Under the pieces are notes generated by a model. That model worked only from the letters and a program-made list of their open reading frames with translations, had not been told where the DNA came from and ran no database searches. The position numbers and the translations under genes are program-made. A DNA stretch of 64,000 bases, from positions 62,001 to 126,000 of the forward strand of contig NZ_LNTU01000040.1 of NCBI RefSeq assembly GCF_001558695.1. Reading direction: 5' to 3'. Below are positions 2,597 through 64,000 of the stretch, one piece after another; the stretch's first letter is position 1; each line of letters opens with the position of its first letter. The stretch is from Paramesorhizobium deserti. Its GTDB lineage: Bacteria > Pseudomonadota > Alphaproteobacteria > Rhizobiales > Rhizobiaceae.

Positions 2597-2605
2597 CTGA
2601 GCCTC

Positions 2606-3754: not shown

Positions 3755-3756
3755 GA

Positions 3757-4950
3757 TCAGGAGGCCCCAAGGGCGATCGCGCCCGACTTCGCCAGCGCCT
3801 CGATCCTGCCCGCATCATATCCCGCCTCCTCCAGCACCTCGCGCGTATGCTGGCCGGTCAGGGGCGCGCCCCGATCGACCGTCGATGGCGTTTTGGAGAA
3901 TTTGATCGGAAAGCCTGGCGTCTTCACCCGTCCTTCCGTCGGATGATCGTATTCGACGAAAGTGCCGTTGTGCCTGATCTGCTCGTCCTCGACCAGATCG
4001 GCATAGCCATAGACCGGGCCGCACCAGATATCCACGGCACGCAGAAGCGCAAGCCATTCCGCGGACGTCCTGGTCTTCAGCTTCTCACGGGTCTTGGCGA
4101 AAATCTCGTCACGCCGCGTCCAGGTGTCGACATCGTCGACCATGGTCAGGAAGCTTTCTTCACCGATCACTTCGCCAAGCGTCTTCAGTTTCGGAAAGGC
4201 GATGATGATAAAGCCGTCGCTGGTGGCAAAGGCGCCATAGGGAGCGCGGATATAGACATGCGCATGCGGTTCGGCCGAACGCGTCTGCGGCTTACCGCCG
4301 ACGGTGAAGACCGACAGTTCCTGCATCTGAATGGTGGTGATTGCATCGAACATGTTCACCTGGACGAGTTGCCCCTCGCCCGTCCGCTCGCGATGCAGGA
4401 GGGCGGCCAGCGCGCCCTCGAAAGCGTTATAGGCCGTGACCGCATCAACCAGATATTGGCCGGCGGCCGTCGGCGGTTCGCCCTCGCGCCCAGCCGATAG
4501 CATCGCACCGGACATGCCCTGCAATACGAGGTCCTGTCCCGGACGGTCGACATAGGGGCCATCTTCACCATAGCCGGAGATGGAGACATAGATCAGCCGC
4601 GGATTGATTGCGGAGAGCGTTTCGTAGTCGACGCCCAGCCTTTTCGCGACACCGGGACGATAGTTTTGAAGAAATATGTCAGCGGACTTCACGAGGTCGA
4701 TCAGTACCTCCTTGCCGCCAGGTGATTTCAGATCGACCGCCAGGGACCGCTTGTTGCGATTGAGCGAGAGGAAGGACACATTGATTTGCTTGCCCTCCGC
4801 ACCGCCGGCGGCAACGTGGCGCTGCCATTCGCCGGCGGTAGGCTCCACCTTCACCACATCGGCGCCAAGATCACCCAGTCTCTGCGCTGCGAACGGGCCC
4901 GCCATTGCGATCGAACAATCCAGCACGCGATAGCCCGACAATATTCCCAT
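3757..4950 (-). CDS. Class III CoA-transferase (CaiB/BaiF family)
   Basis: 397-residue cytoplasmic enzyme that moves CoA between carboxylic acids. Family features are the N-terminal LDCSIAMAGPFAAQRLGDLGA block, VDLKSPGGKE, and Asp169 in the QYLVDAVTAY segment, which aligns with the catalytic aspartate of formyl-CoA transferase. Length is normal. The start ATG is preceded by GAGAGGAATTGCGCA. It is the first gene of the minus-strand operon 4950-1 and faces the transporter operon at 5172 across a region with two LacI-type operators. The downstream hydratase suggests activation of an acid to a CoA thioester followed by hydration. The acid is unknown; a carnitine-like or sugar-acid substrate would both fit. 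Confidence 0.9.
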   Translation of the reverse strand: MGILSGYRVLDCSIAMAGPFAAQRLGDLGADVVKVEPTAGEWQRHVAAGGAEGKQINVSFLSLNRNKRSLAVDLKSPGGKEVLIDLVKSADIFLQNYRPGVAKRLGVDYETLSAINPRLIYVSISGYGEDGPYVDRPGQDLVLQGMSGAMLSAGREGEPPTAAGQYLVDAVTAYNAFEGALAALLHRERTGEGQLVQVNMFDAITTIQMQELSVFTVGGKPQTRSAEPHAHVYIRAPYGAFATSDGFIIIAFPKLKTLGEVIGEESFLTMVDDVDTWTRRDEIFAKTREKLKTRTSAEWLALLRAVDIWCGPVYGYADLVEDEQIRHNGTFVEYDHPTEGRVKTPGFPIKFSKTPSTVDRGAPLTGQHTREVLEEAGYDAGRIEALAKSGAIALGAS

Positions 4951-5018
4951 TGCGCAATTCCTCTCATGCGATGTCTTTCGTCGGCCGGACAGTACGCAAA
5001 GTTTTACGTTTGTCTAGA

Positions 5019-5030
5019 GTGAGCGCTAAC
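5019..5030. promoter_or_regulatory. LacI-family operator, left copy
   Basis: GTGAGCGCTAAC has the central AGCGCT palindrome usual for LacI-family operators. It is the exact reverse complement of the copy at 5076-5087, 57 bp away centre to centre. It lies on the side of the minus-strand operon beginning at 4950. A likely binder is the LacI-family protein at 11198-12244, but this is inference from location. Confidence 0.7.
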
Positions 5031-5060
5031 ATTTTTCATGAAATTTTTAATCCATGGCCA

Positions 5061-5090
5061 TTGACAGGAGGATGCGTTAGCGCTCACATT
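5061..5090 (+). promoter_or_regulatory. Candidate promoter of the 5172-11097 operon, overlapped by an operator
   Basis: TTGACA at 5061-5066 is a perfect -35 box. With an 18-bp spacer the hexamer CACATT (5085-5090) is a weak candidate -10 box. The right LacI operator (5076-5087) covers the spacer and -10, which is the arrangement expected for repression. The downstream gene starts at 5172. The -10 assignment is tentative. Confidence 0.55.
5076..5087. promoter_or_regulatory. LacI-family operator, right copy
   Basis: GTTAGCGCTCAC is the exact reverse complement of the left copy. It overlaps the candidate -10 region of the plus-strand operon. Two operators 57 bp apart between divergent operons could allow coordinated repression of both. 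Confidence 0.7.
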
Positions 5091-5171
5091 TTTTATTGAC
5101 CGACCTTCCGGAAATGAATAACAAATTTATGGGTGAAGGCAGCGGAAGGTCGCTGTGGAGGAGGAAATCAT

Positions 5172-6368
5172 ATGTCGAAACGTTGTTCAGGCGCCCGCTT
5201 GAAGGCGCTTGCTGTTGCATTGCTGGTCCTGCCAGCGGTGCAGGCACAAGCACAGGATCGTGCAGAGCTCATCGGCGCACTGCCAGAGAAGCTTCAGGCA
5301 CTTTATACCGATGCCATCGAAGTCGGTCCGTCCATGTATTCGGATTTCAAGGCACCAGCCAAACCCTGGCGCTGGTGCCATTCCGAATCCTATATGGGCA
5401 ATCCCTGGCGCGTCACATTCAATGATGAACTCAAGCGCCTGGTCGAGGGTGCGAAATCGGCGGGCGACGTCTCGGAATTCGTCGTCTCGGATTCCAACGG
5501 CGACGTCACCCAGCAGATATCGCAGATCCGCGCCTTTATCGAACAGGGCTGCTCGGTCATCACAACGATCGCCGGATCATCGACGGCTCTCAATGCCGTT
5601 ATCGAGGACGCCTACAAGGCGGGCATTCCGGTCATCACCAGTGCGGGCGCTGTTACCACACCCTATGCCATCAATGTGATGCACAACCAGAACCTCTGGG
5701 GCTACCAGATGGGCGAAGGCATCGCCGAAAACCTGCCCGATGGCGGAACGATCCTTCAGGTCGAAGGCATTTCCGGCCATCCGTTGGTCCAGCAGGAAAA
5801 TGCAGGCCTCGAAAAGGCGGTTGCCGAAGCCGGAAATCTGACCATCGCTCGCAAGGTCAGCGGCGAATGGACCGGCACGACAACGAAATCGTCCGTGCTC
5901 CAAGCGCTTGCGACGACCCCACAGCAGATCGATGCCGTCTGGTCCACCGGCAGCGAAGCCCGCTTCATCGCCGAGGCCTTCCAGCAGGCAGGCCGCCCTT
6001 TGCCGCTGATCACGGCCTCGATCTCCGGTGATGCACTGGGCTTCTGGCATGCGAACCAGGACAATTTCAAATTCTATGGTGGGGAAGTCTCTCCACACGT
6101 CGCAGCACAAAATGCATTCCGCGTGGCTTTGCGCATTCTCGAAGGCCAGAAGCCACTCATCAATACAATTATCGCGCCGATGCCAACTATCACGCAGATC
6201 GATCTACCCACCTGGTACAAGGACTGCATGAAGCCGGACTCCGCCGCTATTTTTCCCGTTCCGCCAACGGACCCTTTCCCTGAGGAGCTGCTGAACGGCT
6301 ATTTCTCGAATGGCGCGGCGACACCGCTCTATGATTTCTCAAAGGTGCCGGCTTCCTGCGCCGATTGA
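5172..6368 (+). CDS. Ribose-type ABC transporter substrate-binding protein
   Basis: Exported sugar-type binding protein, 398 residues, type 1 periplasmic fold. A signal peptide is clear: positively charged start (SKRCSGARLK), Leu/Ala-rich core and an AQAQA cleavage site near residue 26. The mature part has EFVVSDSNGDVTQQISQI and SVITTIAGSSTALN, typical of the CUT2 binding-protein family, and four cysteines. The ATG at 5172 follows GGAGGAAATCAT; an in-frame upstream extension to 5133 has no comparable ribosome site. It is the first gene of the operon with a split ATPase (6441, 7270) and two permeases (8028, 9008). A hairpin at 6377-6411 separates it from the ATPase genes and may let it be expressed at a higher level. 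Confidence 0.92.
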   Translation: MSKRCSGARLKALAVALLVLPAVQAQAQDRAELIGALPEKLQALYTDAIEVGPSMYSDFKAPAKPWRWCHSESYMGNPWRVTFNDELKRLVEGAKSAGDVSEFVVSDSNGDVTQQISQIRAFIEQGCSVITTIAGSSTALNAVIEDAYKAGIPVITSAGAVTTPYAINVMHNQNLWGYQMGEGIAENLPDGGTILQVEGISGHPLVQQENAGLEKAVAEAGNLTIARKVSGEWTGTTTKSSVLQALATTPQQIDAVWSTGSEARFIAEAFQQAGRPLPLITASISGDALGFWHANQDNFKFYGGEVSPHVAAQNAFRVALRILEGQKPLINTIIAPMPTITQIDLPTWYKDCMKPDSAAIFPVPPTDPFPEELLNGYFSNGAATPLYDFSKVPASCAD

Positions 6369-6376
6369 TCGCGCTT

Positions 6377-6411
6377 GCACGGTCATGGCCGGAATCCGGC
6401 GATGCCCGTGC
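6377..6411 (+). repeat. Intercistronic hairpin between binding-protein and ATPase genes
   Basis: GCACGG (6377-6382) pairs with CCGTGC (6406-6411), CAT (6384-6386) with ATG (6402-6404), and GCCGG (6388-6392) with CCGGC (6396-6400) around an AAT loop. Only two mismatches interrupt the stem and there is no T-run. A stem of this kind after a binding-protein gene typically protects its mRNA and limits read-through to transporter genes. Confidence 0.65.
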
Positions 6412-6440
6412 AGCGACGGCATTGAAAGACACTGAACATC

Positions 6441-7280
6441 ATGCTTGAGACGGCCAAACAGCGTACCCATTCAAGCAACCCGCCATCGCGCATTCACCAG
6501 GCGCTGCAGTCGGCTTGCGGCGGCAATGTCAGGCAGGCATCGCCCGTCACATCGCTCGTCATTGAGAATGTCGGCAAGCGCTATGGCGAAACTGTCGCGC
6601 TTGCCGACGCGACCCTGAATTTCCGGCCCGGCATCCACACCATTCTCGGCGAAAACGGATCCGGCAAGAGCACCATGCTGAAGGTCCTGTCCGGCGTGAT
6701 CGCTCCCTCGGAGGGACGGATGGTGCTCGACGGGCGGACCATTTCCGCTTCCTCGCCGCGCGACATGCAGGATCTCGGTGTTTCGACAGTCTTCCAGGAA
6801 GTGTTGATCGCGCCGCATCGCGCTGTCCTCGACAATATTTTTCTCGGCTATGACGGCTTCTTCCGAAGATCACTCGACAGGGCTCGGCGGCGAACTGCCG
6901 CAGAAGGCCTTCTTGCCCTTCTCAGCCGGTTCCCGATCGATCTCGATGTCCCGGCCGGCACCCTCGCACTGGCGGCGCAGCAGCTTGTGGTGATCGCCCG
7001 GGCCTTCATACGCCTGCCCTCGATCCTGCTGCTGGACGAGGCAACGGCGGCGCTCGACTATGCCGACCGCGATCTCGTATTCGAAGCCGTCGAGGATTAT
7101 GCCGGGGCCGGCAATATCGTCATCTTCATCTCGCACCGCATGGAAGAGGTCAAACGGCTTTCCGACCGCGTCACCGTGCTGCGCAGTGGCCGGATCATCG
7201 AAACGATCGAGCGTGACGGCATTACCAGTCAGAGGCTGCTCGATCTCATGGCGCCGGAGGCGCATATCCATGTCGAGTGA
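6441..7280 (+). CDS. Sugar ABC transporter ATPase, first nucleotide-binding half (split RbsA-like)
   Basis: 279-residue ATPase corresponding to the first half of RbsA/MglA-type proteins, which normally are about 500 residues with two domains. Visible motifs are Walker A GENGSGKST (residues 70-78), Q-loop Gln119, Walker B ILLLDE (195-200) and the H-loop in IFISHRM. The signature LALAAQQ (175-181) is degenerate, as often seen in the first domain of this family. About 38 extra residues precede the ATPase core, so the start codon is uncertain; the ATG at 6441 has only a weak upstream GAAAGA. The stop overlaps the start of the second-half gene by 11 bp. The two proteins probably assemble on permeases 8028 and 9008. 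Confidence 0.85.
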   Translation: MLETAKQRTHSSNPPSRIHQALQSACGGNVRQASPVTSLVIENVGKRYGETVALADATLNFRPGIHTILGENGSGKSTMLKVLSGVIAPSEGRMVLDGRTISASSPRDMQDLGVSTVFQEVLIAPHRAVLDNIFLGYDGFFRRSLDRARRRTAAEGLLALLSRFPIDLDVPAGTLALAAQQLVVIARAFIRLPSILLLDEATAALDYADRDLVFEAVEDYAGAGNIVIFISHRMEEVKRLSDRVTVLRSGRIIETIERDGITSQRLLDLMAPEAHIHVE

Positions 7281-52403: not shown

Positions 52404-53528
52404 ATGACCAGATTGTCCATAATCGGCATCACGGCCGCCGCCGCCATGTCGCTGCTGTCCACCTCGGCGCTGTCGGAGCCCGAAACCGTCAGCGGTCCGC
52501 CGGACGAGCCCGAATGCTTCGTGCCGTGGAGCGCCGATACCAAATTCTTCAAGTTCCCGACCAAGGACGGGCCCTACCGCATCGCGCTCGCCAACGGCTA
52601 TATCGCCAATACCTGGCGCATCCAAATGATCCAGACGGCGAAGGCCTATGCCGCGCAATCCGATGTCACCGCCAAGCTGAAGGAGTTCAAGGTCGTTTCG
52701 ACCGGCGAGGATGTGCCGGCGCAGATATCCGCGATCAATAATTTCATCGATTCCGGCTATGATGCCGTCATTGTAAACGCGCAGAATCCCACCGCCTTCA
52801 CACCCGTTATCAAGCGGGCAAAGCAGGCGGGTGTCGTGCTTGTCGCCTTCGACAACACGCTCGACACCGAGGACGCGATCAACGTCAACGTCGACCAGAA
52901 GGGCCTCGGCGTGCTGTGGGGCAAGTGGCTCGACACGCACCTGCCCGACGGCGGCAAGATCCTTGAAGTGCGGGGCGTTCCCGGCACATCCGTCGACACC
53001 GACCGCCACAACGGCATCCACGAGACGCTCGACGCATCAGGCAAGAAGTGGGAGGTGGTCGAAGTGCTCGGCAAATGGGACGACCCGACGGCGCAGAAGG
53101 CCACCGCCGACGCCATCGCCGTGCACAAGAAGTTCGACGGTATCACCGCCCAGGGCGGTGATACGGGCGTCGTGCAGGCGATGATCGACGCCAAGCACGC
53201 GTTTGTGCCTTTCGGCGGTGAGACCGAGAACGGCTTCCGCAAATTCTGCGCCAAATACGCTTCCGAAGGGCTCAAATGCTCCTCCGCCGGCACTGGCCCC
53301 GCCCAGGTGGCGGTCGCCATCAAGACGGCGATCGCAGCACTCGAGGGGAAGGTAGTGCCGCAGTCGGTCAAACTGCCGCTTGCGGTGGTCGAGGACCCGG
53401 ATTTCAAGGAGAACCAGGACTATTATCCCGACCAGTCCGACAATTTCTTCGTCGGTAATTCCTTCCCGACCTGCGGGATCAACTTCACCGCGCAGGAGAT
53501 CATGGGGCAGACAAAGGAAAACGAGTGA
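52404..53528 (+). CDS. Ribose-type ABC transporter substrate-binding protein
   Basis: 374-residue exported binding protein with a type 1 periplasmic fold. The signal peptide (LSIIGITAAAAMSLLSTSALS) ends near residue 23. The mature chain has YRIALANGYIANTWRIQMIQ and FIDSGYDAVIVNAQNPTAF, typical of CUT2 binding proteins, and VVLVAFDNTLDTEDAINVNVDQ. It belongs to the same broad subfamily as the protein at 5172 (both have the NxWR motif after the first strand) but is not near-identical. AAGGGAGGAGCATC precedes the ATG. First gene of a four-gene importer operon. Confidence 0.92.
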   Translation: MTRLSIIGITAAAAMSLLSTSALSEPETVSGPPDEPECFVPWSADTKFFKFPTKDGPYRIALANGYIANTWRIQMIQTAKAYAAQSDVTAKLKEFKVVSTGEDVPAQISAINNFIDSGYDAVIVNAQNPTAFTPVIKRAKQAGVVLVAFDNTLDTEDAINVNVDQKGLGVLWGKWLDTHLPDGGKILEVRGVPGTSVDTDRHNGIHETLDASGKKWEVVEVLGKWDDPTAQKATADAIAVHKKFDGITAQGGDTGVVQAMIDAKHAFVPFGGETENGFRKFCAKYASEGLKCSSAGTGPAQVAVAIKTAIAALEGKVVPQSVKLPLAVVEDPDFKENQDYYPDQSDNFFVGNSFPTCGINFTAQEIMGQTKENE

Positions 53529-53571
53529 TACCTGCATAAGCGCCGTCAGAGCCGCAACTGGGGAGGAGCGC

Positions 53572-55110
53572 ATGGCCGCAGATATGGGGGACGCCAGGCC
53601 GCCACTGCTGAGAATGGAAGGGATATCGAAGCGTTTTGGCGGCGTGCGTGCGTTGGAGGAAGCGGAACTGACTGTCAGGGCGGGCCGCATCCATGCCGTC
53701 CTGGGAGAAAACGGCGCCGGCAAATCGACCCTCATCAAGATCCTGGCAGGTGTTATTTCGCCGGACGAAGGCCGGATGCTGCTCGACGGCGGGGAGGTCT
53801 CCTTCGCCTCGCCGGCCGAGGCGAACCGCGCGGGCATCGTCTGCATCTTTCAGGAATTGTCGCTGATCCCCGATCTGAGCGTCGCCGACAATATCGCATT
53901 GTTCGATCCGCCGAGGCGCTTCGGCCTCATCGACCGGCGCGCGCAGCGTCGGATCGCGGAGGAGGCCTTGGCGCGCGCCGGCGCGCCAGACATCCACCCC
54001 ATGGCACTCGTCAAGGACCTGCCGCTCTCGCGTCGCCAGATGGTCGAGATCGCCAAGTCGCTCGCCCGCCAACCGCGCATCTTGATCCTTGACGAAGCCA
54101 CCTCAGCGCTGACCGCGGCCGACGTCGCCAAGGTCTTTTCGGTGCTGAAACGGCTCCGCTCGGAGGGTCTGGCGCTCCTCTACATCTCGCACCGGATGCA
54201 CGAGATCGCCGAGCTTGCCGACGAATGCACGGTCTTTCGCAACGGGCGCAATGTCGCCAGCTATCCGGCCGGCACGAAGACCGACAATGAGGTTGTCGAA
54301 TTGATGATCGGGCGCGAATACAAACATGTTTTCCCGCCGAAGCCGGTATCGCCGCCGGCCGCGCGGCCGGTTCTGGAATGCCGGAACCTCAGCTGGAGCG
54401 AACGGCTGCGCGACATCTCCTTCTCCGTCCGCCAGGGCGAGGTGGTCGGGCTCGGCGGCCTCGATGGACAGGGACAGCGCGAACTCCTATTGGCGCTGTT
54501 CGGGGTCCTGAGGGGATGCGGCGGGAAGGTGCTGGTCAACGGCAAACCGGTGGCGCTCTCGAGCCCCGGCCAGGCGAAGGCGGACGGCATTGGAATGGCG
54601 CTGATTCCGGAGGACCGCAAGACCGAAGGCCTGATGCTGCCGATGAGCGTGCGCGAGAATCTCTCCTTCGCATCCCTCGACCGCGTCTCCCGCCACGGGC
54701 TGATCGACCGCGCGGCGGAAGACCGGCAGATCGAGGAGATGGTCCGGCTCCTGGCGATCCGCGCCGGCAGCCTCGACATGCCGGTCGGCGGGCTCTCCGG
54801 CGGCAATCAGCAGAAGGTGGTCATCGCCAAATGGCTGATGCGCGCGCCCCGCATCATCCTGCTCAACGATCCCACGCGCGGGATCGATGTCGGCACCAAG
54901 CAGGAGATCTATCAGCTGTTGCGCCGGCTGGCGGATGCCGGCGCCGCCATCCTGTTCTATTCCACCGATTATGACGAGCTGATCGGCTGTTGCGATCGGG
55001 TTCTGGTGCTCTATGACGGCATGATCAAGCGCGAACTGGTGGGTAAGGAGATCACGGAGCACGCGCTGATCGCGACGGCGCTCAACATTTCCGGGGAGCA
55101 GGCGGCATGA
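53572..55110 (+). CDS. Sugar ABC transporter ATPase with two nucleotide-binding domains (RbsA/MglA-like)
   Basis: 512-residue ATPase of normal fused form, unlike the split version at 6441/7270. The first domain has Walker A GENGAGKST (about 42-50) and Walker B ILILDEATSAL, and its signature is LPLSRRQ. The second domain has a degenerate Walker A region (GLDGQGQRE), LSGGNQQKVVIAKW and IILLNDPTRGID. The ATG at 53572 follows GGGGAGGAGCGC. The stop overlaps the first permease start (ATGA). It energises permeases 55107 and 56087. Confidence 0.93.
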   Translation: MAADMGDARPPLLRMEGISKRFGGVRALEEAELTVRAGRIHAVLGENGAGKSTLIKILAGVISPDEGRMLLDGGEVSFASPAEANRAGIVCIFQELSLIPDLSVADNIALFDPPRRFGLIDRRAQRRIAEEALARAGAPDIHPMALVKDLPLSRRQMVEIAKSLARQPRILILDEATSALTAADVAKVFSVLKRLRSEGLALLYISHRMHEIAELADECTVFRNGRNVASYPAGTKTDNEVVELMIGREYKHVFPPKPVSPPAARPVLECRNLSWSERLRDISFSVRQGEVVGLGGLDGQGQRELLLALFGVLRGCGGKVLVNGKPVALSSPGQAKADGIGMALIPEDRKTEGLMLPMSVRENLSFASLDRVSRHGLIDRAAEDRQIEEMVRLLAIRAGSLDMPVGGLSGGNQQKVVIAKWLMRAPRIILLNDPTRGIDVGTKQEIYQLLRRLADAGAAILFYSTDYDELIGCCDRVLVLYDGMIKRELVGKEITEHALIATALNISGEQAA

Positions 55111-56090
55111 CTGGCGACTGGCGATACCGCCTTGCCCGGAACCGCGGCACGCTCCTGGCATTCGGCATTTTCCTGGCGATGTTCACGATCTATGTCCTGA
55201 ACCATCCCGCGGGTTTCACCGCGAATGTGGTGCAAACCGCAACGAACAAGGGCGTGCTCCTCGCCTTCGTGGCGATGGCGCAGGCGCTGGTGGTGATCAC
55301 CGCCGGTATCGATCTCTCAGTCGGCATGATCTTCATCCTGACGAATTGCCTGGCTTCCTGGATCGTCGTCGGCACGCCGCTGCAGACAGCGCTTGGCGTT
55401 GCGGGCGTGCTCGCGGCGGGATTGGCGTGCGGCGCGCTCAATGGCGCGATCGTCATCTATGGCCGACTGCAGCCGATCGTGGCGACGATCGCCACCGGCG
55501 CGATCTATTTCGGCATCGCCTTGTGGCTGAGGCCTTATCCCGGCGGATCGGTCAATGAAGGCCTGGCCGATGCACTGACCGGAAAACTGTTCGGCATTGT
55601 CCCGGCCAGTCTTGCCGTGCTGGCAGGTGCCGTACTCATCGTCTGGGCCCCGTTCAGCCGATCGGTGCTGGGGCGCGCTGCCTATGCGGCCGGATCGGCC
55701 GAACCCGCCGGCTATATGTCCGGCATTCCGATCCGTCCCGCCAAGTTCATGGCTTATGCGCTCGGAGGATTGCTGGCGTCGATCGGCGGACTTTTCCTCA
55801 CCTTCTTCACCTATACGGGCGAGGCGGCCTTTGCCAGCGGCAACGCCTATACCCTGTTTTCCATAGCGGCTGTGGTGCTCGGCGGCGTCTCGCTCTATGG
55901 CGGAACAGGGAGCGGCGTCGGCGCGATCTTCGGCGCGCTCGCCTTCCGAACAATCGGCGATCTCCTGTTCGTCTTCGATCTCGACCCGCTATGGCAGCCG
56001 CTATTCCAGGGCGTGGTGCTACTGGTGGCCGTCAGCCTGGGGGCATTCGGGCTTTTACGCGTGCGCAGCCGTTTGGAGTGGTTCAGATGA
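55107..56090 (+). CDS. Ribose-type ABC transporter permease 1 (third importer)
   Basis: 327-residue CUT2 permease. First hallmark AQALVVITAGIDLSVGM (about residues 56-72) and second AVVLGGVSLYGGTGSG are clear, as are nine to ten hydrophobic segments. It overlaps the ATPase stop and the next permease start, each by ATGA. Pairing with 56087-57061 is expected because the two differ and both are needed in this type. Confidence 0.93.
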   Translation: MTGDWRYRLARNRGTLLAFGIFLAMFTIYVLNHPAGFTANVVQTATNKGVLLAFVAMAQALVVITAGIDLSVGMIFILTNCLASWIVVGTPLQTALGVAGVLAAGLACGALNGAIVIYGRLQPIVATIATGAIYFGIALWLRPYPGGSVNEGLADALTGKLFGIVPASLAVLAGAVLIVWAPFSRSVLGRAAYAAGSAEPAGYMSGIPIRPAKFMAYALGGLLASIGGLFLTFFTYTGEAAFASGNAYTLFSIAAVVLGGVSLYGGTGSGVGAIFGALAFRTIGDLLFVFDLDPLWQPLFQGVVLLVAVSLGAFGLLRVRSRLEWFR

Positions 56091-57061
56091 GCGAAACCGC
56101 GAATCTCGTGGGAACACGCTGGCTGCGACGCGTCGATCCAGCGGTTGCGACCGCCTTTGCCTGCATCATCCTGCTGCTTGCGTTCGGCAGCCTCTATTCC
56201 ACCAACTTCCTATCACCCGAATATCTGCTCCAGCAGCTGAAGGTCGCCTCCTTCCTCGGCGTCATCGCCACCGGCATGATGCTGGTCATCCTGCTCGGCC
56301 AGATCGATCTCTCCGTGCCCTGGGCAGTGGCGGTCGGCGGCATGATGGCCTGTGCGGCGGCCGCCTATGGCACCGTCGGCGTCTATCTCGCCATTCCCTT
56401 CGGCGTAGCATGTGGCGCAGCAATTGGCCTCGTCAACGGCATCGGCGTCGCCTATCTCCGCATCCCTTCCATGATCATCACCCTTGCCACCAACGCCGTC
56501 GCGCAAGGGCTGATGGTCGTCTATACAGGTGGCTTCTCTCCGAGGGATTCCGCAACCGCCGCAATGCGCTTCCTGGCAACGGGTTCTCTCCTCCCCGGCA
56601 TTCCCAACGCCGTGGTGATCTGGGCGCTGATCGGCTTCGCCGCAGTCTTTCTGCTGACTCGCACCACCTTCGGCCGCTCCGTATATGCGATCGGCAACCG
56701 CGAGCGCGCCGCCTATCTCTCGGGCATCGATACGCGACGCATTGTCATGGTTGCTTTTATTCTGTCGGGCGCGCTCAGCGCCTTTGGCGGCGTGCTGCTT
56801 GCCGGCTATGCCTCGAAGGCGGCCCAGGCGATGGGCGACGCCTATCTCCTGCCGGCAATCGCCGCGGTTGTCCTCGGCGGCACCTCGATCCTCGGCGGGC
56901 GCGGCTCCTATCTCGGTACGATCGCCGGCGTTATCCTGATCACCGTGCTGCAATCGATCCTCTCGGTGATGCAGATGCCCGAAGCCGGCCGGCAGGTCAT
57001 ATACGGCATATTGATCGTCGCCATGCTGCTGCTCTATGGCCGCACACCGGCGCTGCGGTGA
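56087..57061 (+). CDS. Ribose-type ABC transporter permease 2 (third importer)
   Basis: 324-residue CUT2 permease. Hallmarks are GMMLVILLGQIDLSVPW and AAVVLGGTSILGGRGSY. The ATG at 56087 lies in an ATGA overlap with permease 1; an in-frame longer version is an artefact of the preceding gene. It is followed after 30 bp by a GFA-family gene with its own ribosome site, which is probably in the same transcript. Confidence 0.93.
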   Translation: MSETANLVGTRWLRRVDPAVATAFACIILLLAFGSLYSTNFLSPEYLLQQLKVASFLGVIATGMMLVILLGQIDLSVPWAVAVGGMMACAAAAYGTVGVYLAIPFGVACGAAIGLVNGIGVAYLRIPSMIITLATNAVAQGLMVVYTGGFSPRDSATAAMRFLATGSLLPGIPNAVVIWALIGFAAVFLLTRTTFGRSVYAIGNRERAAYLSGIDTRRIVMVAFILSGALSAFGGVLLAGYASKAAQAMGDAYLLPAIAAVVLGGTSILGGRGSYLGTIAGVILITVLQSILSVMQMPEAGRQVIYGILIVAMLLLYGRTPALR

Positions 57062-57091: not shown

Positions 57092-57535
57092 ATGTCAGAG
57101 GCGACACCGGACGATACCCGCAGGCTTGCCGGGCGATGCATGTGCGGCGCTGTCCAATACAGCGTCGCCGATGCTTTCATCTATGCCGCCAATTGCCACT
57201 GCCCGGATTGCCGGCGGGCGACCGGTTCGGCCTTCAAGCCTTTTGCCGGCATCGAGCGCGAGAAGCTGGCGGTTACCAAAGGCGCAGATCAGCTCCTGAT
57301 TTTCGGTGGAGAAAAGAACCATGACGCGCGCTACCAATCATGCGGCTCCTTCCTCTATTCGGTGGTTCGCGACGGCGCTTTTGTCCATGTCACCCTGGGT
57401 TCTCTTGCCGATGAGCCGACCATCGGGCCGAGCGAGCATATCTTTGTCGGCTCCAAGGCATCGTGGTTCACCATCGATGATGATCTTCCCCAGTATGATC
57501 GTCATGTCGCGGATGGCCCGCCGATCAACCGCTGA
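57092..57535 (+). CDS. GFA-family protein (glutathione-dependent formaldehyde-activating enzyme-like)
   Basis: 147-residue zinc-fold protein. The first two cysteine sites are present: RCMCGAVQY (about 15-23) and CHCPDCRRATGSAF (about 38-51). In the third, the family's C-x-x-C-G reads YQSCG (DARYQSCGSFLYS), so one zinc ligand is replaced by tyrosine. That may weaken the structural zinc site or shift its function. The ATG at 57092 follows GGAGAAAATATC. It lies 30 bp after the importer's second permease. Most GFA proteins have no proven formaldehyde role, so this should be read as a domain label. Confidence 0.8.
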   Translation: MSEATPDDTRRLAGRCMCGAVQYSVADAFIYAANCHCPDCRRATGSAFKPFAGIEREKLAVTKGADQLLIFGGEKNHDARYQSCGSFLYSVVRDGAFVHVTLGSLADEPTIGPSEHIFVGSKASWFTIDDDLPQYDRHVADGPPINR

Positions 57536-57887: not shown

Positions 57888-59102
57888 ATGACCCAGCGCT
57901 TCGACGACGCCCGCGTCCTCATGTACAGCCACGACACATTCGGGCTCGGCCATCTGCGCCGTTGCCGCACCATCGCCCATTCGCTGGTCGAGGATTTCCG
58001 CGGGCTCCAGGTGCTCATCATCTCGGGTGCCACCATCGCCGGCGCCTTCGACTACCGTGCTCGCGTCGATTTCGTCAAAACGCCGAGCGTCATCAAGCTG
58101 AGGAATGGCGAATATACCTCGATGGAGCGCCATATCGACCTCAACGAAACCTTGAGGATGCGACAGGCCATCATCCGCCGCACGGCCGAGACTTTCCAGC
58201 CCGACATTTTCATCGTCGACAAGGAGCCGCTCGGCTTGCGCGGCGAGATCGAGGACACACTCTCCTATCTCAAGGCGCGCGGCACCACCCTGGTCCTCGG
58301 CCTGCGCGAGGTGATGGATGCTCCTGACCTTCTGGAGGCGGAGTGGCGCAAGAACGATGTCATGCGCAAGATCGGCCTGTTCTATGACATGATCTGGACC
58401 TATGGACCGCCCGATTTCTATGACCCGCTGGTCGGTCTGGACGTGCCGCCGACCATCCAGGCGAAGATGAAATTCGTGGGCTTCCTGCAGCGGCGCCTGT
58501 CACATGCGGAACTGCCCGGCCACAAGCCGGAAGGCGACTACATTCTCGTCACGACCGGCGGCGGCGGCGATGGCGCCGATCTCATCCATGATGTCATCCA
58601 TGCCTATCAGCAGGATCCGACGCTCCAGCACAAGGCGCTGATCGTGCTCGGCCCCTATATGCCCGCCCACAAGCGGCAGAAGCTGATCCGCAAAAGCGCC
58701 GGCATACCCTTCATCAAGATGATCGAGTTCGACAACCGGATGGAAGAACTGATCGCAGGAGCCAGGGCGGTGGTGGCGATGGGCGGTTACAACACCTATT
58801 GCGAGATCCTGTCCTTCGACAAGCCGGCGCTGATCGTGCCGCGCGTCAGGCCGCGCGAGGAACAGTTGATCCGCGCCCGCCGCGCCGCCGAGCTCGGCCT
58901 GGTGCAGATGCTGTTGCCGGAAGAGGCCGAGGACGCATTGCGCTTCGCCGCCGAGCTCAAAGCGCTGCCGGATCGGCCCCGCCCCTCGCAAGGCGCTCCC
59001 GATCTTCGCCTCGAAGGCCTCGTCCATATCTCCGAGATTGTCGGCGAATGGCTCGAACAACGATCGACCCGTCATCTCGCCCTCGTCGAGGGCAGGAGCT
59101 GA
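57888..59102 (+). CDS. MurG-like glycosyltransferase (GT-B fold), first of two
   Basis: 404-residue cytoplasmic or peripheral membrane glycosyltransferase related to family 28. The N-terminal half has HDTFGLGHLRRCRTIAHSL, like the glycine-rich acceptor loop of MurG/MGDG synthases. The C-terminal half has the donor-binding pattern YILVTTGGGGDGADLI and VAMGGYNTYCEILSFDKPALIVPR...EEQLIRARRAAELGL, as in MurG and related UDP-sugar transferases. AGAGAGGTCCGGCA precedes the ATG at 57888. It begins a plus-strand operon with a GT4 enzyme (59107) and a second MurG-like protein (60351). Acceptor and sugar are unknown. Confidence 0.85.
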   Translation: MTQRFDDARVLMYSHDTFGLGHLRRCRTIAHSLVEDFRGLQVLIISGATIAGAFDYRARVDFVKTPSVIKLRNGEYTSMERHIDLNETLRMRQAIIRRTAETFQPDIFIVDKEPLGLRGEIEDTLSYLKARGTTLVLGLREVMDAPDLLEAEWRKNDVMRKIGLFYDMIWTYGPPDFYDPLVGLDVPPTIQAKMKFVGFLQRRLSHAELPGHKPEGDYILVTTGGGGDGADLIHDVIHAYQQDPTLQHKALIVLGPYMPAHKRQKLIRKSAGIPFIKMIEFDNRMEELIAGARAVVAMGGYNTYCEILSFDKPALIVPRVRPREEQLIRARRAAELGLVQMLLPEEAEDALRFAAELKALPDRPRPSQGAPDLRLEGLVHISEIVGEWLEQRSTRHLALVEGRS

Positions 59103-59106
59103 ACCC

Positions 59107-60354
59107 ATGCCCCCCCGCCGCAAGATCGTGGTGGTCCTGAAGGGATATCCGCGCCTGTCCGAAACCTTCATCGCGCAGGAACTGCTTGGCCTGGAACGTG
59201 CCGGGATCGAGCTCATCATCGTCGCGCTCAGGCGGCCGACCGACGGCAAGCGCCACCCGGTGCACGATGAGATAAAGGCATCCGTTCACTATCTGCCGGA
59301 ATATCTGCATGAGGAGCCGCTGCGGGTTCTCAAATCGCTTCTGGTTTGCCTGCCTCAGGCCAGTTTCAGGCGCGCGTTCGGCACCTTTTTCGCCGATCTG
59401 CGCCGTGATTTCACGCGCAACCGTATCCGCCGCTTCGGACAGGCGCTGGTGCTCGCGGCCGAATGGCCGGATGACGCCGGCTGGCTGCACGCGCATTTCG
59501 CCCATACACCGGCCTCCGTCACCCGCTACACCAGTCTTTTGCGCGGCCTGCCCTGGACGTGTTCGGCCCATGCCAAGGACATCTGGACTTCAGCTGACTG
59601 GGATCTGGCCGACAAACTCTCCTCCGCGCGCTGGACGGTGACCTGCACCGAGACCGGCTTTCAGCATCTGAAAAAGCTGGCGAACGGCAGCTCGCGCGTG
59701 CATCTAAGCTATCACGGGCTGGACCTTGCGCGTTTCGGTGATTTCCAGGGAATACGCCCGCCGCGCGACGGCTCCTCGCCCGACGATCCCGTCATCATCC
59801 TCAGTGTCGGCCGAGCAGTGGAAAAGAAGGGCTTCGATACGCTCCTGCAGGCGCTCGCTCTCCTGCCGCGCGACCTCGCCTGGCGTTTCGAGCATGTCGG
59901 CGGCGGCGACCAGCTCAACCGGCTCAAGGGCTTTGCCCAAAAGCTCGGCATCGCATCGCGTGTTTCATGGAACGGAGCGCTCGCGCAGGAGGATGTCCTC
60001 CAGCTTTATCGCAGCGCGGACATCTTCACGCTCGCCTGCCGGATTGCTTCGGACGGCGACCGGGACGGCCTGCCCAATGTGCTGGTGGAAGCGGCAAGCC
60101 AGCGGCTGCCCTGTGTATCGACGAATGTCTCGGGTATTCCCGAACTCTTGACGGACGGCGAGACAGGCGTGCTCGTCCCGCCGGACGATCCGAAAGCGCT
60201 TGCGCGGGCGCTAGAGTACGTGATCCGTGATCCGACCCTGCGCGTCCGCCTTGGCGATGCCGCGGAGCGACGCGTCCGCGTCCATTTCGATCACCAGTCG
60301 AGCATCGGCCAGCTGAAGAACCTGTTCGAGCAGGAATGGCAGGCAGCGACATGA
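59107..60354 (+). CDS. Glycosyltransferase family 4
   Basis: 415-residue GT-B glycosyltransferase. The N-terminal domain reads KGYPRLSETFIAQELLGLERAG and contains HAHFAHTPASVTRYTSLL and SAHAKDIW, as in exopolysaccharide GT4 enzymes. The C-terminal donor domain has ILSVGRAVEKKGFDTLLQAL and the E-x7-E-like segment GLPNVLVEAASQRLPCVSTNVSGIPELL. The ATG at 59107 follows GGAGCTGAACCC, 4 bp after the previous stop. Its last codons overlap the next gene (ATGA at 60351). It is probably cytoplasmic, adding one sugar to a lipid- or protein-linked acceptor. Confidence 0.92.
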   Translation: MPPRRKIVVVLKGYPRLSETFIAQELLGLERAGIELIIVALRRPTDGKRHPVHDEIKASVHYLPEYLHEEPLRVLKSLLVCLPQASFRRAFGTFFADLRRDFTRNRIRRFGQALVLAAEWPDDAGWLHAHFAHTPASVTRYTSLLRGLPWTCSAHAKDIWTSADWDLADKLSSARWTVTCTETGFQHLKKLANGSSRVHLSYHGLDLARFGDFQGIRPPRDGSSPDDPVIILSVGRAVEKKGFDTLLQALALLPRDLAWRFEHVGGGDQLNRLKGFAQKLGIASRVSWNGALAQEDVLQLYRSADIFTLACRIASDGDRDGLPNVLVEAASQRLPCVSTNVSGIPELLTDGETGVLVPPDDPKALARALEYVIRDPTLRVRLGDAAERRVRVHFDHQSSIGQLKNLFEQEWQAAT

Positions 60355-61502
60355 TGCGCCCGCGCGTCTTCTTTTACGTCCAGCACCTGCTCGGCATCGG
60401 ACACCTTGCCCGCGCCAGCCGTATCGCCGCCGCGCTCACCGCCGCCGGTTTCGATGTCACCGTGGTCACAGGGGGCGTGCCGGTCGCCGGTTTCCCGGGG
60501 CCGGGCATCCGCACTGTGAACCTGCCTCCCGTCGTTACATCCGACGAGAGTTTTTCCGGCCTGGCGGATATCGAGGGAAAGCCTGTCGACGACGCCTTCA
60601 GGGAAAAGCGCTGCCGCATGCTGGTCGAGGCGTTCCAAAGCTGCAGGCCCGACATCGTCATTCTGGAAGCCTTTCCCTTCGGCCGCCGCCAGATGCGTTT
60701 CGAACTGCTGCCCCTGCTCGACGCCATCGGCAACATGGCGCCGAAACCCTTCGTCGTCGCGTCGATCCGCGACATCCTCCAGGAGCGGGTGAAGCCTGGA
60801 CGGAGCGAGGAGACGGCCGATCTCGTCAATCGGCATTTCGATCTGGTGATGGTGCATGGCGATCCTGCCTTCGCGACACTCGGCGAAACATTTCCACTTG
60901 CCCACCAAATCGAGGCGAAGATCGCCTATACCGGCCTGGTGGCCGCGCCGCCGCCGGCGCCGGCTTCCGAATCCTTTGATGTACTGATTTCCGTCGGCGG
61001 CGGGGCTGCCGGGCGAAATCTTGTCGGATCGGCGGTCGCGGCGGCGCGAAACACCCGGACAGACCTGAAATGGGGGCTGATAACTGGTCCCAATTTCCCG
61101 AAAGACGCGTTTGAAACAGTCCTCCACGAAGCGCCGCCGCATCTCTCGGTCTTCAGGTTCCGCGAGGATTTCGCGAACCTCCTGACCGGCGCCCGGCTTT
61201 CCGTCTCGCAGGCTGGTTACAACACGGTTGGTGACATCCTGCGCGCCGGATGCCGCTCCCTACTCATCCCGTTCGCCTCCGGCGGCGAAACCGAGCAAAC
61301 GCGTCGTGCCCTGGGCCTTCAAAGGCTCGGCCTGGCAAGCGTGCTGAAGGAAGAGGAGCTCAACGAAGCAACCCTTGCGGCGGCGATCGAACAAACCCTC
61401 GCGAGCGAACCGAAGGCCCTTCGCCTCGATCTCGATGGCGCGCCAGGCACGGCACGGGCCTTGCGCGAGCTCTTGGGCGTCAGACGCTCCCTATCAGCAT
61501 GA
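60351..61502 (+). CDS. MurG-like glycosyltransferase (GT-B fold), second of two
   Basis: 383-residue glycosyltransferase of the same general type as 57888, but clearly divergent. VQHLLGIGHLARASRIAAAL matches the N-terminal loop, and the C-terminal donor site is ISVGGGAAGRNLVGSA and SVSQAGYNTVGDILRAGCRSLLIPFASGGETEQTRRALGLQRLGL. The tandem with another MurG-like enzyme suggests two successive, related transfers. The start at 60351 overlaps the GT4 stop. Its end overlaps the convergent gene at 61480 by 23 bp. Confidence 0.85.
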   Translation: MMRPRVFFYVQHLLGIGHLARASRIAAALTAAGFDVTVVTGGVPVAGFPGPGIRTVNLPPVVTSDESFSGLADIEGKPVDDAFREKRCRMLVEAFQSCRPDIVILEAFPFGRRQMRFELLPLLDAIGNMAPKPFVVASIRDILQERVKPGRSEETADLVNRHFDLVMVHGDPAFATLGETFPLAHQIEAKIAYTGLVAAPPPAPASESFDVLISVGGGAAGRNLVGSAVAAARNTRTDLKWGLITGPNFPKDAFETVLHEAPPHLSVFRFREDFANLLTGARLSVSQAGYNTVGDILRAGCRSLLIPFASGGETEQTRRALGLQRLGLASVLKEEELNEATLAAAIEQTLASEPKALRLDLDGAPGTARALRELLGVRRSLSA

Positions 61503-62190
61503 AACGGGTGTAGTTCTTCGTCGGCAGCGCGCCGGAAAACCGCACCTCCCGCAGCGCCGCCATCGCTTCGAAGGCCTCGAGCGAAGCCACGCAATTGATG
61601 TGTGTCGGCTCGCTGAAATAATCATTGGACTGCAGGAGGACCAGCGTTCCCTCGGGCAGCATATCGAGCCAGCCCCGCACATCCACGATGTGCTCGCAGC
61701 TCGAATTGATCACCATATCAGGCCGTTCTGCCGCATAATCGAGCGTATACATGTCGCTCGTCCGTGCCCTAAAACGCTCTCCGGCCGTGCGGTTCAGGGT
61801 CTCGGCGATCTCCGCCACATGCGGGTCGATATCGATGCTCTCGATCATGCCAATGTCGAAGCGACCATCCTCGAAGAGCATAGCCGGCAGCACGCCGTAC
61901 CAGCCGCCCAGTACCCATATGCGCCCGAATCGGCCGCCGCAGCTCTCGAAGAGCCTGTCCCGCGCCCACATCTTGCAGGCGACCTGCTTATGGTTGAAGG
62001 CATTGGCGATCTCGGCCTCGGGATGACGAGCGACGACGCGGGCGAGCCCCTCGACCAGCGGGCTCGCCGTATAGGCGGCAATTCCTCTCGCCAGATCATA
62101 GGCGTGCTCGTGCCAGTCCACGCTGGCGTCATCATCGGTCCGGGTAGCGTCCATCATGGGCTTGTTGTATGTTGGGATTTTGAACGACAC
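61480..62190 (-). CDS. Methyltransferase-like protein
   Basis: 236-residue protein with a Rossmann-like core: IWVLGGWYGVLPAML (motif I position, about residues 93-107), IESIDIDPHVAEIAETL (motif II), and DMVINSSCEHIVDVRGWLDML. The layout is that of a class I SAM-dependent methyltransferase, with a helical N-terminal part (YDLARGIAAYTASPLVEGLARVV). The start MSFKIPTYNK at 62190 is not well supported; internal Met codons at 12-13 are possible. It converges with the glycosyltransferase gene and overlaps it by 23 bp. Substrate unknown; modification of the cluster's glycan is a reasonable guess. Confidence 0.65.
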   Translation of the reverse strand: MSFKIPTYNKPMMDATRTDDDASVDWHEHAYDLARGIAAYTASPLVEGLARVVARHPEAEIANAFNHKQVACKMWARDRLFESCGGRFGRIWVLGGWYGVLPAMLFEDGRFDIGMIESIDIDPHVAEIAETLNRTAGERFRARTSDMYTLDYAAERPDMVINSSCEHIVDVRGWLDMLPEGTLVLLQSNDYFSEPTHINCVASLEAFEAMAALREVRFSGALPTKNYTRFMLIGSV

Positions 62191-62219
62191 AACAAAATCT
62201 GAAAAGTAAATCTCATCGC

Positions 62220-62804
62220 ATGGATTTGAATACGAACGAAGCTTCTACGCCGCTGGCCGATGGAAAGGACCTGCCGCATCTCTCGGGTCCGGCGGCATTC
62301 ATCCGGCAGGTTCTCGCCGCCCATTTCGTGCGCGACTGCCCGCATATCGTGGAGATCGGCGGGCATATCAGGCCGGTTACCGAATACCTGACCCACAGAC
62401 CGCTTTCCGTTCTCTCCGTCGACCCGAAGACCCCCGCCTATGAGGCGGATGAGCTCAACGGCCATCCCTGCCGGGTTCGTCACGTCCCCCGGAAGTTCCA
62501 GGAAGTCGAATACGACTATGCTCCGGGCAGCTACGGGCTGGTCCTGCTCGGCTATTCGCTAAAACCCTTCGGCAGCCGCGAGCCGCTCGGGCAGTTGCTG
62601 TTCTCATTGATCGACAATGCCCGAGTGGTGGTGATCGAATATCCGCCGGAGCTCGACCGTGCGTCCTCGCAGGTCCCCGCCATCGTCAGCCGGCCCAACC
62701 TGAAGGTCCATTGCAGCGTCGAACTTGTGCTCGACGACGAAGCCATCGCGGGATCGCCCTTTGCGAAGAGGCGGTTCTACGTGCTGCATCCTTCCACTCG
62801 CTAG
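62220..62804 (+). CDS. Methyltransferase-like or hypothetical protein
   Basis: 194-residue protein with a possible SAM-binding core: CPHIVEIGGHIRPVTEYLTH (motif I-like), LSVLSVDPKTPAYEA (motif II-like) and GSYGLVLLGYSLKPFG (motif IV-like). The glycine motif is incomplete (E-I-G-G-H), so activity is doubtful. It is transcribed divergently from 61480-62190 with a gap of 29 bp and followed after 12 bp by the ABC exporter gene. The start ATG at 62220 has AAAAGTAAAT upstream and no strong ribosome site. It may be a partner or paralogue of the neighbouring protein. Confidence 0.55.
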   Translation: MDLNTNEASTPLADGKDLPHLSGPAAFIRQVLAAHFVRDCPHIVEIGGHIRPVTEYLTHRPLSVLSVDPKTPAYEADELNGHPCRVRHVPRKFQEVEYDYAPGSYGLVLLGYSLKPFGSREPLGQLLFSLIDNARVVVIEYPPELDRASSQVPAIVSRPNLKVHCSVELVLDDEAIAGSPFAKRRFYVLHPSTR

Positions 62805-62816
62805 TGGCGGCTGCTG

Positions 62817-64000
62817 ATGGAACCAAGTCTCGCCCGCTATATCTGGTCGCATACCAAGAGGCAGCAGCTCTGGATCGTCGTGATCGTCGTCCTGTCGATG
62901 ATCCCCTATTTCCTGTCGTTCGATTTGCCCAAGCTGATCGTCAACGGGCCGATCCAGGGCGGAGGCTTCGAGGCTCCCGGCGCAACACAGCCCTTCATGG
63001 AGTTCAGCCCCGATCTGCCGTTCATCGGCGAGATCCATATCTTCTCCGGCTTCGAGCTCACTCGCGAGGGCATGCTGGTCGCCCTCAGCCTGGTCTTCCT
63101 GCTGCTCGTCATCATCAACGGCTTGTTCAAATTCTATATCAACACCTACAAGGGCCGTCTTGGCGAGAGGATGCTGCGGCGCATCCGCTTCGAGCTTGTC
63201 GATCGCGTCCTCAGGTTTCCTCCACAATATTTCAAGCGGGTGAAATCCGCCGAGGTGGCGAGCCTGGTGAAGGACGAGGTGGAGCCGCTCGGCGGCTTCA
63301 TCGGCGATGCATTCGTGCAGCCGGCCTTGCTCGGCGGCCAGGCGCTGACCGCCATGCTGTTCATCATGGTGCAAAATTTCTGGCTCGGCATGATGGCCTT
63401 CGCCATCGTGAGCGTGCAGATCGTGCTTATCCCGCAGATGCGCAAAAGGCTGCTTCGGCTGGGCCGTGAACGGCAGATCACCGCGCGGGCGCTCTCCGGC
63501 CGGGTCGGCGAGATCGTCGACGGCATCGGCACCGTGCATGTCCATGACACCTCCAATTACGAGCGTGCAGACATCGCCGCCAGGCTCGGACGGATCTTCA
63601 AGATCCGTTACGATCTCTATCAGTGGAAGTTCCTGGTCAAATTCCTCAACAATCTGCTGGCCCAGGTAACGCCTTTCCTGTTCTATCTCATCGGCGGCTA
63701 TCTGGTTCTTCGGGGGCGTCTCGATGTCGGTCAGTTGGTGGCCGTCATCACCGCCTATAAGGACCTGCCCGGGCCGCTCAAGGAACTGATCGACTGGGAC
63801 CAGGCGCGTCAGGACGTGCAGGTGAAATATGCGCAGGTCGTCGAACAGTTCAGTGCCGAGAATCTGATCGAGCCGGAAATTCAGACCGTCAGATACGAGC
63901 CTGTCGGTGCGCTGAGCGGCCCGCTTGCCGCCGTCAATCTCTCCCTGGCCGATGACGGCGGGGCGACACTGGTCGAGCGGGTCTCCTTCGAGATCCATCC
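62817..64000 (+). CDS. ABC exporter, membrane part (3' end outside window)
   Basis: Open frame of 394 codons from the ATG at 62817 to the window edge. It encodes the membrane domain of a type I ABC exporter: TM1 near WIVVIVVLSMIPYFL, a periplasmic insert of about 50 residues (GPIQGGGFEAPGATQPFMEF onward), TM2 near LVALSLVFLLLVIINGLF, and the family coupling text GRLGERMLRRIRFELVDRVLRFP and HDTSNYERADIAARL. The ATPase part should lie beyond the edge. It is 12 bp after the methyltransferase-like gene, so it is probably in one unit with it. It may export the product of the glycosyltransferases. The direction is inferred from family only. Confidence 0.85.
   Translation, partial: MEPSLARYIWSHTKRQQLWIVVIVVLSMIPYFLSFDLPKLIVNGPIQGGGFEAPGATQPFMEFSPDLPFIGEIHIFSGFELTREGMLVALSLVFLLLVIINGLFKFYINTYKGRLGERMLRRIRFELVDRVLRFPPQYFKRVKSAEVASLVKDEVEPLGGFIGDAFVQPALLGGQALTAMLFIMVQNFWLGMMAFAIVSVQIVLIPQMRKRLLRLGRERQITARALSGRVGEIVDGIGTVHVHDTSNYERADIAARLGRIFKIRYDLYQWKFLVKFLNNLLAQVTPFLFYLIGGYLVLRGRLDVGQLVAVITAYKDLPGPLKELIDWDQARQDVQVKYAQVVEQFSAENLIEPEIQTVRYEPVGALSGPLAAVNLSLADDGGATLVERVSFEIH

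Follow-up and report, generated by a model that had tools for sequence, protein, structure and literature searches.

A cluster in Paramesorhizobium deserti corresponding to the phazolicin-protecting polysaccharide locus of Sinorhizobium meliloti: a probable alphaproteobacterial surface-glycan module with a degenerate ABC exporter

A gene cluster at the right end of a 64,000-nucleotide stretch of DNA from the soil bacterium Paramesorhizobium deserti (contig NZ_LNTU01000040.1, or C40; C40:62001-126000, hereafter the window) encodes glycosyltransferases, a polysaccharide deacetylase-like protein, an ATP-binding cassette (ABC) exporter-like protein named AbcF and a protein of the cNMP_binding family named CnmpG. 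By sequence comparison, it corresponds nearly gene by gene to smb21252-smb21271 on pSymB of Sinorhizobium meliloti, the locus of the phazolicin-protecting polysaccharide (PPP). The cluster starts at 57888 and its right end lies at about 69,962, past the window edge at 64,000, as a preliminary description made from the letters of the window alone had anticipated. Coordinates use window numbering, continued past that edge. The genes are listed below.

57888-59102, + strand: gtA, glycosyltransferase of 404 residues with a GT28-type C-terminal domain (PF04101, 39.1 bits against a cut-off of 22)
59107-60354, + strand: gt4B, GT4-family glycosyltransferase (PF00534, E 4e-36; start 59107 taken from the sequence)
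60351-61502 (alternative start 60336), + strand: gtC, second glycosyltransferase with a GT28-type C-terminal domain (PF04101, 49.1 bits against 22)
61480-62190, - strand: mtD, putative class I S-adenosylmethionine (SAM) methyltransferase, convergent with gtC (sub-threshold PF13649; orthologue annotation)
62220-62804, + strand: mtE, conserved protein with no recognised fold (no Pfam or NCBIfam match)
62817-65531, + strand: abcF, ABC-exporter-like protein of 904 residues with a degenerate nucleotide-binding domain (PF00664); first 394 codons inside the window
65559-66011, + strand: cnmpG, cNMP_binding protein (PF00027)
66045-66884, + strand: mblH, Lactamase_B_2 protein (profile search)
66881-67630, - strand: pdaI, polysaccharide deacetylase-like protein (sub-threshold, 16 bits against 23.1)
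67627-68787, - strand: gt4J, second GT4-type glycosyltransferase (profile search)
68805-69962, + strand: DUF3095 protein (DUF3095 profile, 431 bits)

The preliminary description had reported two divergent GT28-like enzymes flanking a GT4 enzyme in a tightly coupled operon, and the profile matches agree with it. The genes gtA and gt4B are separated by 4 bases and gt4B and gtC overlap by 4 bases, and the gtC query matched gtA-type genes at 27-29% identity, so the pair is indeed divergent. The MurG-like character of the pair does not extend to MurG in the strict sense, since they score 17.8 and 34.1 bits with TIGR01133, whose cut-off is 250.25. For gt4B, an EpsE-like NCBIfam match was found below cut-off (140.6 against 400 bits), and PdaI contains conserved RDDD and HGxxH motifs. 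Of the two methyltransferase-like genes described, mtD is supported by the sub-threshold PF13649 match (E 0.013) and by its S. meliloti orthologue, annotated as 'class I SAM-dependent methyltransferase', and its minus-strand position places it outside the operon. The assignment of mtE found no such support: neither Pfam (E ≤ 0.1) nor NCBIfam (E ≤ 0.01) gave a match, and the PDB match was at chance level (E 1.9). phmmer searches against the PDB gave nothing usable for DUF3095, mtD or mtE.

The gene content of loci in other genomes was mapped by tblastn. In 80 named loci found with gtA, with flanks cut at 10 kb, gt4B was present in 80 and gtC in 79, the only locus without gtC being a 3.7-kb contig (L117). 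abcF followed by cnmpG, both present, was found in 78 of these loci, mtD in 76 and mtE in 32. Conservation of the glycosyltransferase genes is far beyond chance, and mtE is not core to the module. The gene order is conserved elsewhere, a point that the preliminary description had put forward for checking, and its general view of the cluster, as one for glycan synthesis with an exporter-like protein, finds support.

A protein search of plasmid records found relatives of gtC in 259 records, including 143 from Rhizobium and 80 from Sinorhizobium, and the statement that no named system has this gene order is superseded by the S. meliloti locus. On pSymB of strain ml28, the order is GT4, deacetylase, metallo-beta-lactamase (MBL), DUF3095, nucleotide sugar dehydrogenase, adenylate/guanylate cyclase (AGC) and polysaccharide lyase, continued by a four-gene ABC importer, gtA, gt4B, gtC, methyltransferase, Crp-like protein and FkbM; a broken, unannotated abcF precedes the Crp-like gene. 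The UDP-sugar dehydrogenase, polysaccharide lyase (PF14099) and cyclase (PF00211) genes thus adjoin the importer in S. meliloti. In strain 1021, the corresponding genes are located at ~822.6-845.8 kb. SMb numbers were assigned by gene order and position on the unannotated 1021 record, aided by SMb21257, which is listed as 'adenylate cyclase, truncated' in the published text (PMC12542648) and coincides with the frameshifted cyclase found here.

According to the text of Travin et al. (2023), nine genes of smb21252-smb21271 are needed for an uncharacterised surface polysaccharide, named PPP (PMC10128002). The minimal inhibitory concentration of phazolicin was 0.18 µg/mL for smb21252 and smb21265 mutants and 1.47 µg/mL for the wild type, and the phenotype was interpreted as a surface barrier. 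The same text also cites Agrobacterium tumefaciens orthologues in a pyocyanin screen and a symbiosis transposon-sequencing (Tn-seq) screen; the main text of the symbiosis Tn-seq paper (PMC7268258) names none of these genes, and that of an NCR247 Tn-seq paper (PMC5539429) names no smb212.. gene. Under Myxococcus attack, 7 of 9 PPP genes are described as up-regulated (PMC10315480). The match to a characterised cluster is therefore partial: the PPP locus is known from mutant phenotypes rather than from its product. The Clr/cAMP-regulated sulfated polysaccharide cluster nodP2-smb21248, as described in the text of PMC5498481, was set aside as a neighbouring but different pSymB cluster.

Two of six S. 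meliloti strains have a frameshifted abcF, namely 1021 (L126:29724-32433) and ml28 (L124:18131-20838), and the gene is intact in Rm41, RU11/001, RMO17 and B399. The break occurs at a run of C of variable length among strains; phase variation at this site is possible, as is an artefact of sequencing. In 1021 the adenylate/guanylate cyclase of the locus is also interrupted and occupies two reading frames (L126:16468-17813), whereas ml28 has it as a single gene.

The distribution of the module was surveyed in 289 alphaproteobacterial genomes with gtA, abcF and the gene for the binding protein of the oligopeptide-type importer (SBP). gtA was present in 93 genomes (E ≤ 1e-40), abcF in 97 and SBP in 91; all three were found together in 87 and at least one in 101. 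abcF and gtA co-occurred in 91 genomes. The exceptions were abcF without gtA (6), gtA without abcF (2), SBP without gtA (3), gtA without SBP (5), abcF without SBP (9) and SBP without abcF (3), and some of the genomes concerned are fragmented assemblies while others are not. In a set of 61 related genomes, gtC and DUF3095 were each found in 25 and abcF and SBP each in 26, the latter two in exactly the same genomes; all four genes occur in 22 genomes and none in 33. The placement of SBP relative to gtA was recorded for 87 of the 88 genomes that have both: 61 have the two genes within 15 kb of each other, 4 have them at a greater distance on a shared contig and 22 have them on separate contigs. 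Contig breaks can mimic such separation, yet it also occurs in assemblies with few contigs (for example G101, 3 contigs).

Four distant genomes (L188-L191) bring importer and glycan genes together on one strand, in the order impC, impB, SBP, ATPase, pdaI, gtC, histidine phosphatase, gt4J, gt4B and gtA. abcF is divergent from them, with cnmpG next in three; the L190 stretch stops inside abcF. The histidine phosphatase gene between gtC and gt4J was confirmed by PF00300 in two of the four, and a Methyltransf_17 gene (PF12692) follows cnmpG in some. Neither gene had a tblastn match in the window cluster.

The S. meliloti SBP belongs to the SBP_bac_5 family, and its closest solved chains are 5ipw (E 2e-78), SPH1118 (E 9e-68) and an alpha-galactoside-binding protein (E 6e-33). 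SPH1118 presumably binds pectin-type oligosaccharides. The importer ATPase of S. meliloti contains Walker motifs in both halves. Since lyase and UDP-sugar dehydrogenase genes adjoin the importer there, it is most natural to guess that it takes up fragments containing uronate.

AbcF contains an exporter membrane domain (PF00664, E 4e-21) and a split ABC_tran domain (PF00005, E 1e-9). It had been described as a type I ABC exporter with a periplasmic insert. The exporter domain and the start at 62817 are confirmed and a loop is present, but this loop is modest, with ~36 residues between transmembrane segments TM1 (15-42) and TM2 (79-111) by hydropathy, and the ATPase residues are lost. From 98 tblastn hits, we obtained 93 near-full-length and stop-free loci and 89 unique sequences (the window copy counted once, duplicates dropped), which are 33-90% identical to the window protein; motif positions were mapped via alignment to 7qkr. 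The Walker A lysine is absent in all 89 (Ala in 62, Gly in 22, Arg in 3, Val in 1 and Thr in 1), as is the Walker B Asp-Glu pair. No sequence has histidine at the aligned H-loop position, with some having one a residue away, and the signature glutamine is kept in 88. A further set of 31 sequences contains 11 from relatives and 20 from class-sample loci, hand-picked among 97 hits and therefore non-random. In this set the Walker A lysine is kept in 12, all from the class sample, and in 11 of these it is followed by Asp or Glu instead of the usual Ser or Thr; the Walker B pair is kept in one (L181). As the loss is partial in the class and complete in the rhizobial set, it forms a gradient.

An insert of ~270 residues separates the Q-loop from the signature motif of AbcF and includes two extra segments resembling the Q-loop and next helix (ATIGENLLFG and ASVMDNILFG). 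Profile comparisons of the three Q-loop-like segments gave P values of 6e-11, 7e-6 and 1e-4. We examined an AlphaFold2 model of the L044 orthologue, which is 90% identical to the window protein (62 sequences, mean predicted local distance difference test score (pLDDT) 71.4, predicted template modelling score (pTM) 0.63). All 239 residues of the ComA nucleotide-binding domain (NBD) aligned to model residues 364-904 at 2.1 Å (Z 29.0), and the orthologue is predicted to keep a complete ABC-exporter fold. By sequence, conservation is highest in the membrane half, although parts of it are poorly modelled. ABC genes beside abcF in L035, L038 and L040 were considered as a canonical half-transporter partner and are read as the double ATPase of the importer.

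The gene after abcF is cnmpG in all 20 class-sample loci fetched (20 of 97 hits). CnmpG matches PF00027 at 77.4 bits against a cut-off of 27.5, and its phosphate-binding cassette GE...RTAT is kept over 116 unique sequences, with G and R invariant and E in at least 90%. An HxHxDH-type metal motif is found in at least 90% of 84 mblH sequences; the motif counts for both genes are approximate. Between gtC and abcF in one locus (L031:10138-11826) lies a gene for a fusion of a 2Fe-2S ferredoxin and a class III cyclase (PF00111 and PF00211) with a hydrophobic N-terminal part, which is another cyclase tied to the locus.

DUF3095 is a family of unknown function in Pfam. A model of the N-terminal part of the L074 protein (227 residues, 19 sequences) has a mean pLDDT of 61.8, with block means of 67-89 over residues 11-140. 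Its best structural matches are headed by a designed ferredoxin fold (Z 9.1) and include, at Z 7.5-8.8, Csm1 and adenylyl cyclases from bacteria. A first-strand Asp and a hairpin GDG are invariant in a 26-row alignment in which the window copy appears twice, and profile comparison aligned the Asp positions weakly to the motifs of the locus cyclase (P 0.022). PF00211 (Guanylate_cyc) was not among the Pfam families matched up to E 0.1. DUF3095 may have a cyclase- or palm-like fold, as suggested by the model, and cyclase-like activity is a lead to follow.

PADLOC searches showed a resemblance of the CnmpG domain to parts of Pycsar systems (E to 4e-16) and a match of abcF to mad3 (E 1.6e-8), and no match for DUF3095, the MBL protein, gtA, gtC, mtD or mtE. 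A reading as a Pycsar or CBASS defence system was not supported, as no combination of a dedicated cyclase with an effector was matched among the proteins scanned (gt4B, gt4J and pdaI lay outside the scan).

Homology, gene order, co-occurrence, motif loss and predicted folds lead us to favour the reading that the cluster is the P. deserti copy of a conserved alphaproteobacterial surface-glycan module, the PPP locus of S. meliloti, which responds to cyclic nucleotides and works with an importer for oligosaccharide re-uptake. We give this reading as a whole a probability of about 0.6. Synthesis of a glycan by the cluster is well supported, and the product is probably a protective surface sugar coat. 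We infer that four cytosolic GT-B glycosyltransferases (GtA, Gt4B, GtC and Gt4J) would build an oligosaccharide, probably on a lipid carrier, and that PdaI would deacetylate it; some relatives have a UDP-sugar dehydrogenase gene next to the locus, which points to uronic acid as a possible constituent of the glycan. The membrane protein AbcF and its partner CnmpG would govern how the glycan moves across or along the inner membrane, with a cyclic nucleotide as the signal; this nucleotide may be made by the module cyclase (AGC and possibly DUF3095) and removed by the MBL protein. Released oligosaccharides would be taken back in by the Opp/Dpp-type importer.

Several observations weigh against parts of this reading. 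The suggested cyclic-nucleotide control of AbcF comes from gene adjacency. The PPP was defined in strain 1021, where both abcF and the cyclase are broken, so both may be dispensable for the phazolicin phenotype; alternatively, the run of C in abcF of 1021 may permit some full-length product. For mblH, RNase Z is the best profile (83.4 bits against 252), and the zinc phosphodiesterase ELAC1 is the best match in the PDB. The cyclic-nucleotide phosphodiesterase model scores lower than RNase Z (37.6 against 400 bits), which makes removal of the nucleotide by MblH a guess. No priming transferase, polymerase or Wzx/Wzy-type gene was recognised, with no dedicated search made for one; 'polysaccharide' is thus not proven, and a short glycolipid fits equally. 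The Fisher tests of co-occurrence (p 1e-59 to 1e-65) ignore phylogeny.

One alternative is an ordinary surface-polysaccharide locus in which AbcF is an irrelevant leftover of decay, an unlinked canonical system handles export and the cyclic-nucleotide genes are incidental. The lost ATPase residues and the frameshifts in abcF, including that of strain 1021 in which the PPP phenotypes were measured, are in line with this explanation. A useless remnant is nevertheless unlikely to remain alignable from end to end in distant genomes of the class (for example residues 1-903, E 6e-283), to accompany gtA in 91 genomes against 6 with abcF only and 2 with gtA only, and to conserve its membrane half best, and we consider this explanation unlikely. 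Enzymes with a GT28-type C-terminal domain include lipid glycosyltransferases. The cluster might accordingly glycosylate an envelope lipid, as a glycolipid or as a decoration of the lipopolysaccharide core, with AbcF as an MsbA- or PglK-like flippase. MsbA is the best NCBIfam model for AbcF, but the score of 197.5 bits falls well short of the TIGR02203 cut-off of 602, so identity with the MsbA lipid A flippase is rejected, and AbcF of the rhizobial set is without ATPase residues. We regard the lipid explanation as doubtful.

The preliminary description had mentioned a natural product, and a small secreted glyco-compound (a signal, a metallophore-like molecule or a natural product) could leave the cell via AbcF and return via the Opp-type importer instead of forming a coat. 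The presence of four glycosyltransferases with no recognised polymerase, a dedicated importer beside them in four distant genomes and the close co-occurrence of importer and exporter-like gene would fit such a compound. The lyase, deacetylase-like and UDP-sugar dehydrogenase genes suit a glycan, however, and the S. meliloti phenotype is taken as a surface barrier in the text of Travin et al. (PMC10128002). No domain of non-ribosomal peptide synthetases or polyketide synthases scored above cut-off among the cluster proteins scanned, and the sole match was a sub-threshold one of DUF3095 to ACP_syn_III (E 0.041). We think that a small glyco-compound is quite improbable.

On a more far-reaching reading, AbcF and CnmpG might form a new kind of transporter or gate. 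It would be an ABC exporter without ATP hydrolysis in rhizobia, switched by a cyclic nucleotide via a separate sensor. Together with the importer, whose ABC ATPases are the only intact ones seen in the module, it would form a single working unit, giving a glycan export-and-recycling cycle in about one third of the sampled Alphaproteobacteria. This is a speculative proposal and probably not correct in full. We found no description of the combination of an exporter fold without ATPase residues, repeated Q-loop segments, a cyclic-nucleotide-binding partner and importer co-occurrence in the literature searched. A degenerate ABC exporter beside such a sensor raises the testable question of whether an ABC fold can serve as a ligand-gated device without ATP. 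If the favoured reading is right, the surface glycan that guards rhizobia from an antimicrobial peptide is part of a module present in about one third of the 289 sampled genomes. A list of the likely parts of this module is now possible; one of them, the importer, could not be assigned from the neighbourhood alone in some genomes.

The cluster is bordered on both sides by other genes. To its left, the window contains a ribose/sugar-type ABC importer at 52404-57061 (a binding protein, an ATPase and two permeases by translation, one permease being PF02653). A gene of the GFA family (57092-57535) lies between this importer and gtA. Queries with these genes found no match adjoining gtA in the loci of three congeners (L024-L026), and they were therefore excluded from the cluster; a single GFA-like match of 24% identity in L026 lies ~11 kb from gtA, on the opposite side of the cluster. 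To the right, a mobile region begins ~2.7 kb from DUF3095 (C40:132638-138512; L003:638-1569 and 1862-6512). It contains IS3-like transposase frames with an internal duplication, VapC-like genes and a tyrosine-recombinase-like gene, as judged by translation.

Comparison with known systems shows where individual parts of the module resemble and depart from them. AbcF shares the PF00664 membrane domain and the NBD fold with MsbA-fold exporters (MsbA, TmrAB and ComA), and differs from them by lacking the Walker A lysine and Walker B Asp-Glu in all 89 sequences, by the ~270-residue insert and by its separate cyclic-nucleotide-binding partner. A cyclic-nucleotide-binding protein adjoining an ABC exporter is also found in the bacteriocin-type systems of TIGR03896, which CnmpG matches at E 2.8e-10 (40.1 bits against 161); unlike these systems, abcF has no peptidase domain match and is accompanied by glycan genes. 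The predicted strand-helix order of the DUF3095 N-terminal model resembles that of class III cyclases, GGDEF domains and the Cas10 palm, although the model is also close to a designed ferredoxin and aspartokinase regulatory domains rank high in Foldseek. The S. meliloti SBP is similar to the oligosaccharide-binding proteins of Opp/Dpp-type importers (SPH1118 and the alpha-galactoside-binding protein), whereas the importer here is linked to a biosynthetic glycan module. The closest known system is the PPP locus of S. meliloti 1021. The importer, which adjoins the other genes in S. meliloti, is on another contig in P. deserti (C4:17449), and the P. deserti lyase and cyclase genes lie on C40 at 187-189 kb, ~60 kb from abcF. 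The S. meliloti 1021 stretch lacks a match to mtE, and the 20 kb around the window cluster lack one to the S. meliloti FkbM gene. In contrast, homologues of gtA, gt4B, gtC, mtD, abcF, cnmpG, mblH, pdaI, gt4J and DUF3095 are all present in the PPP locus at 52-79% identity, and the glycosyltransferase, deacetylase-like, MBL, DUF3095, abcF and cnmpG genes are arranged in shared blocks.

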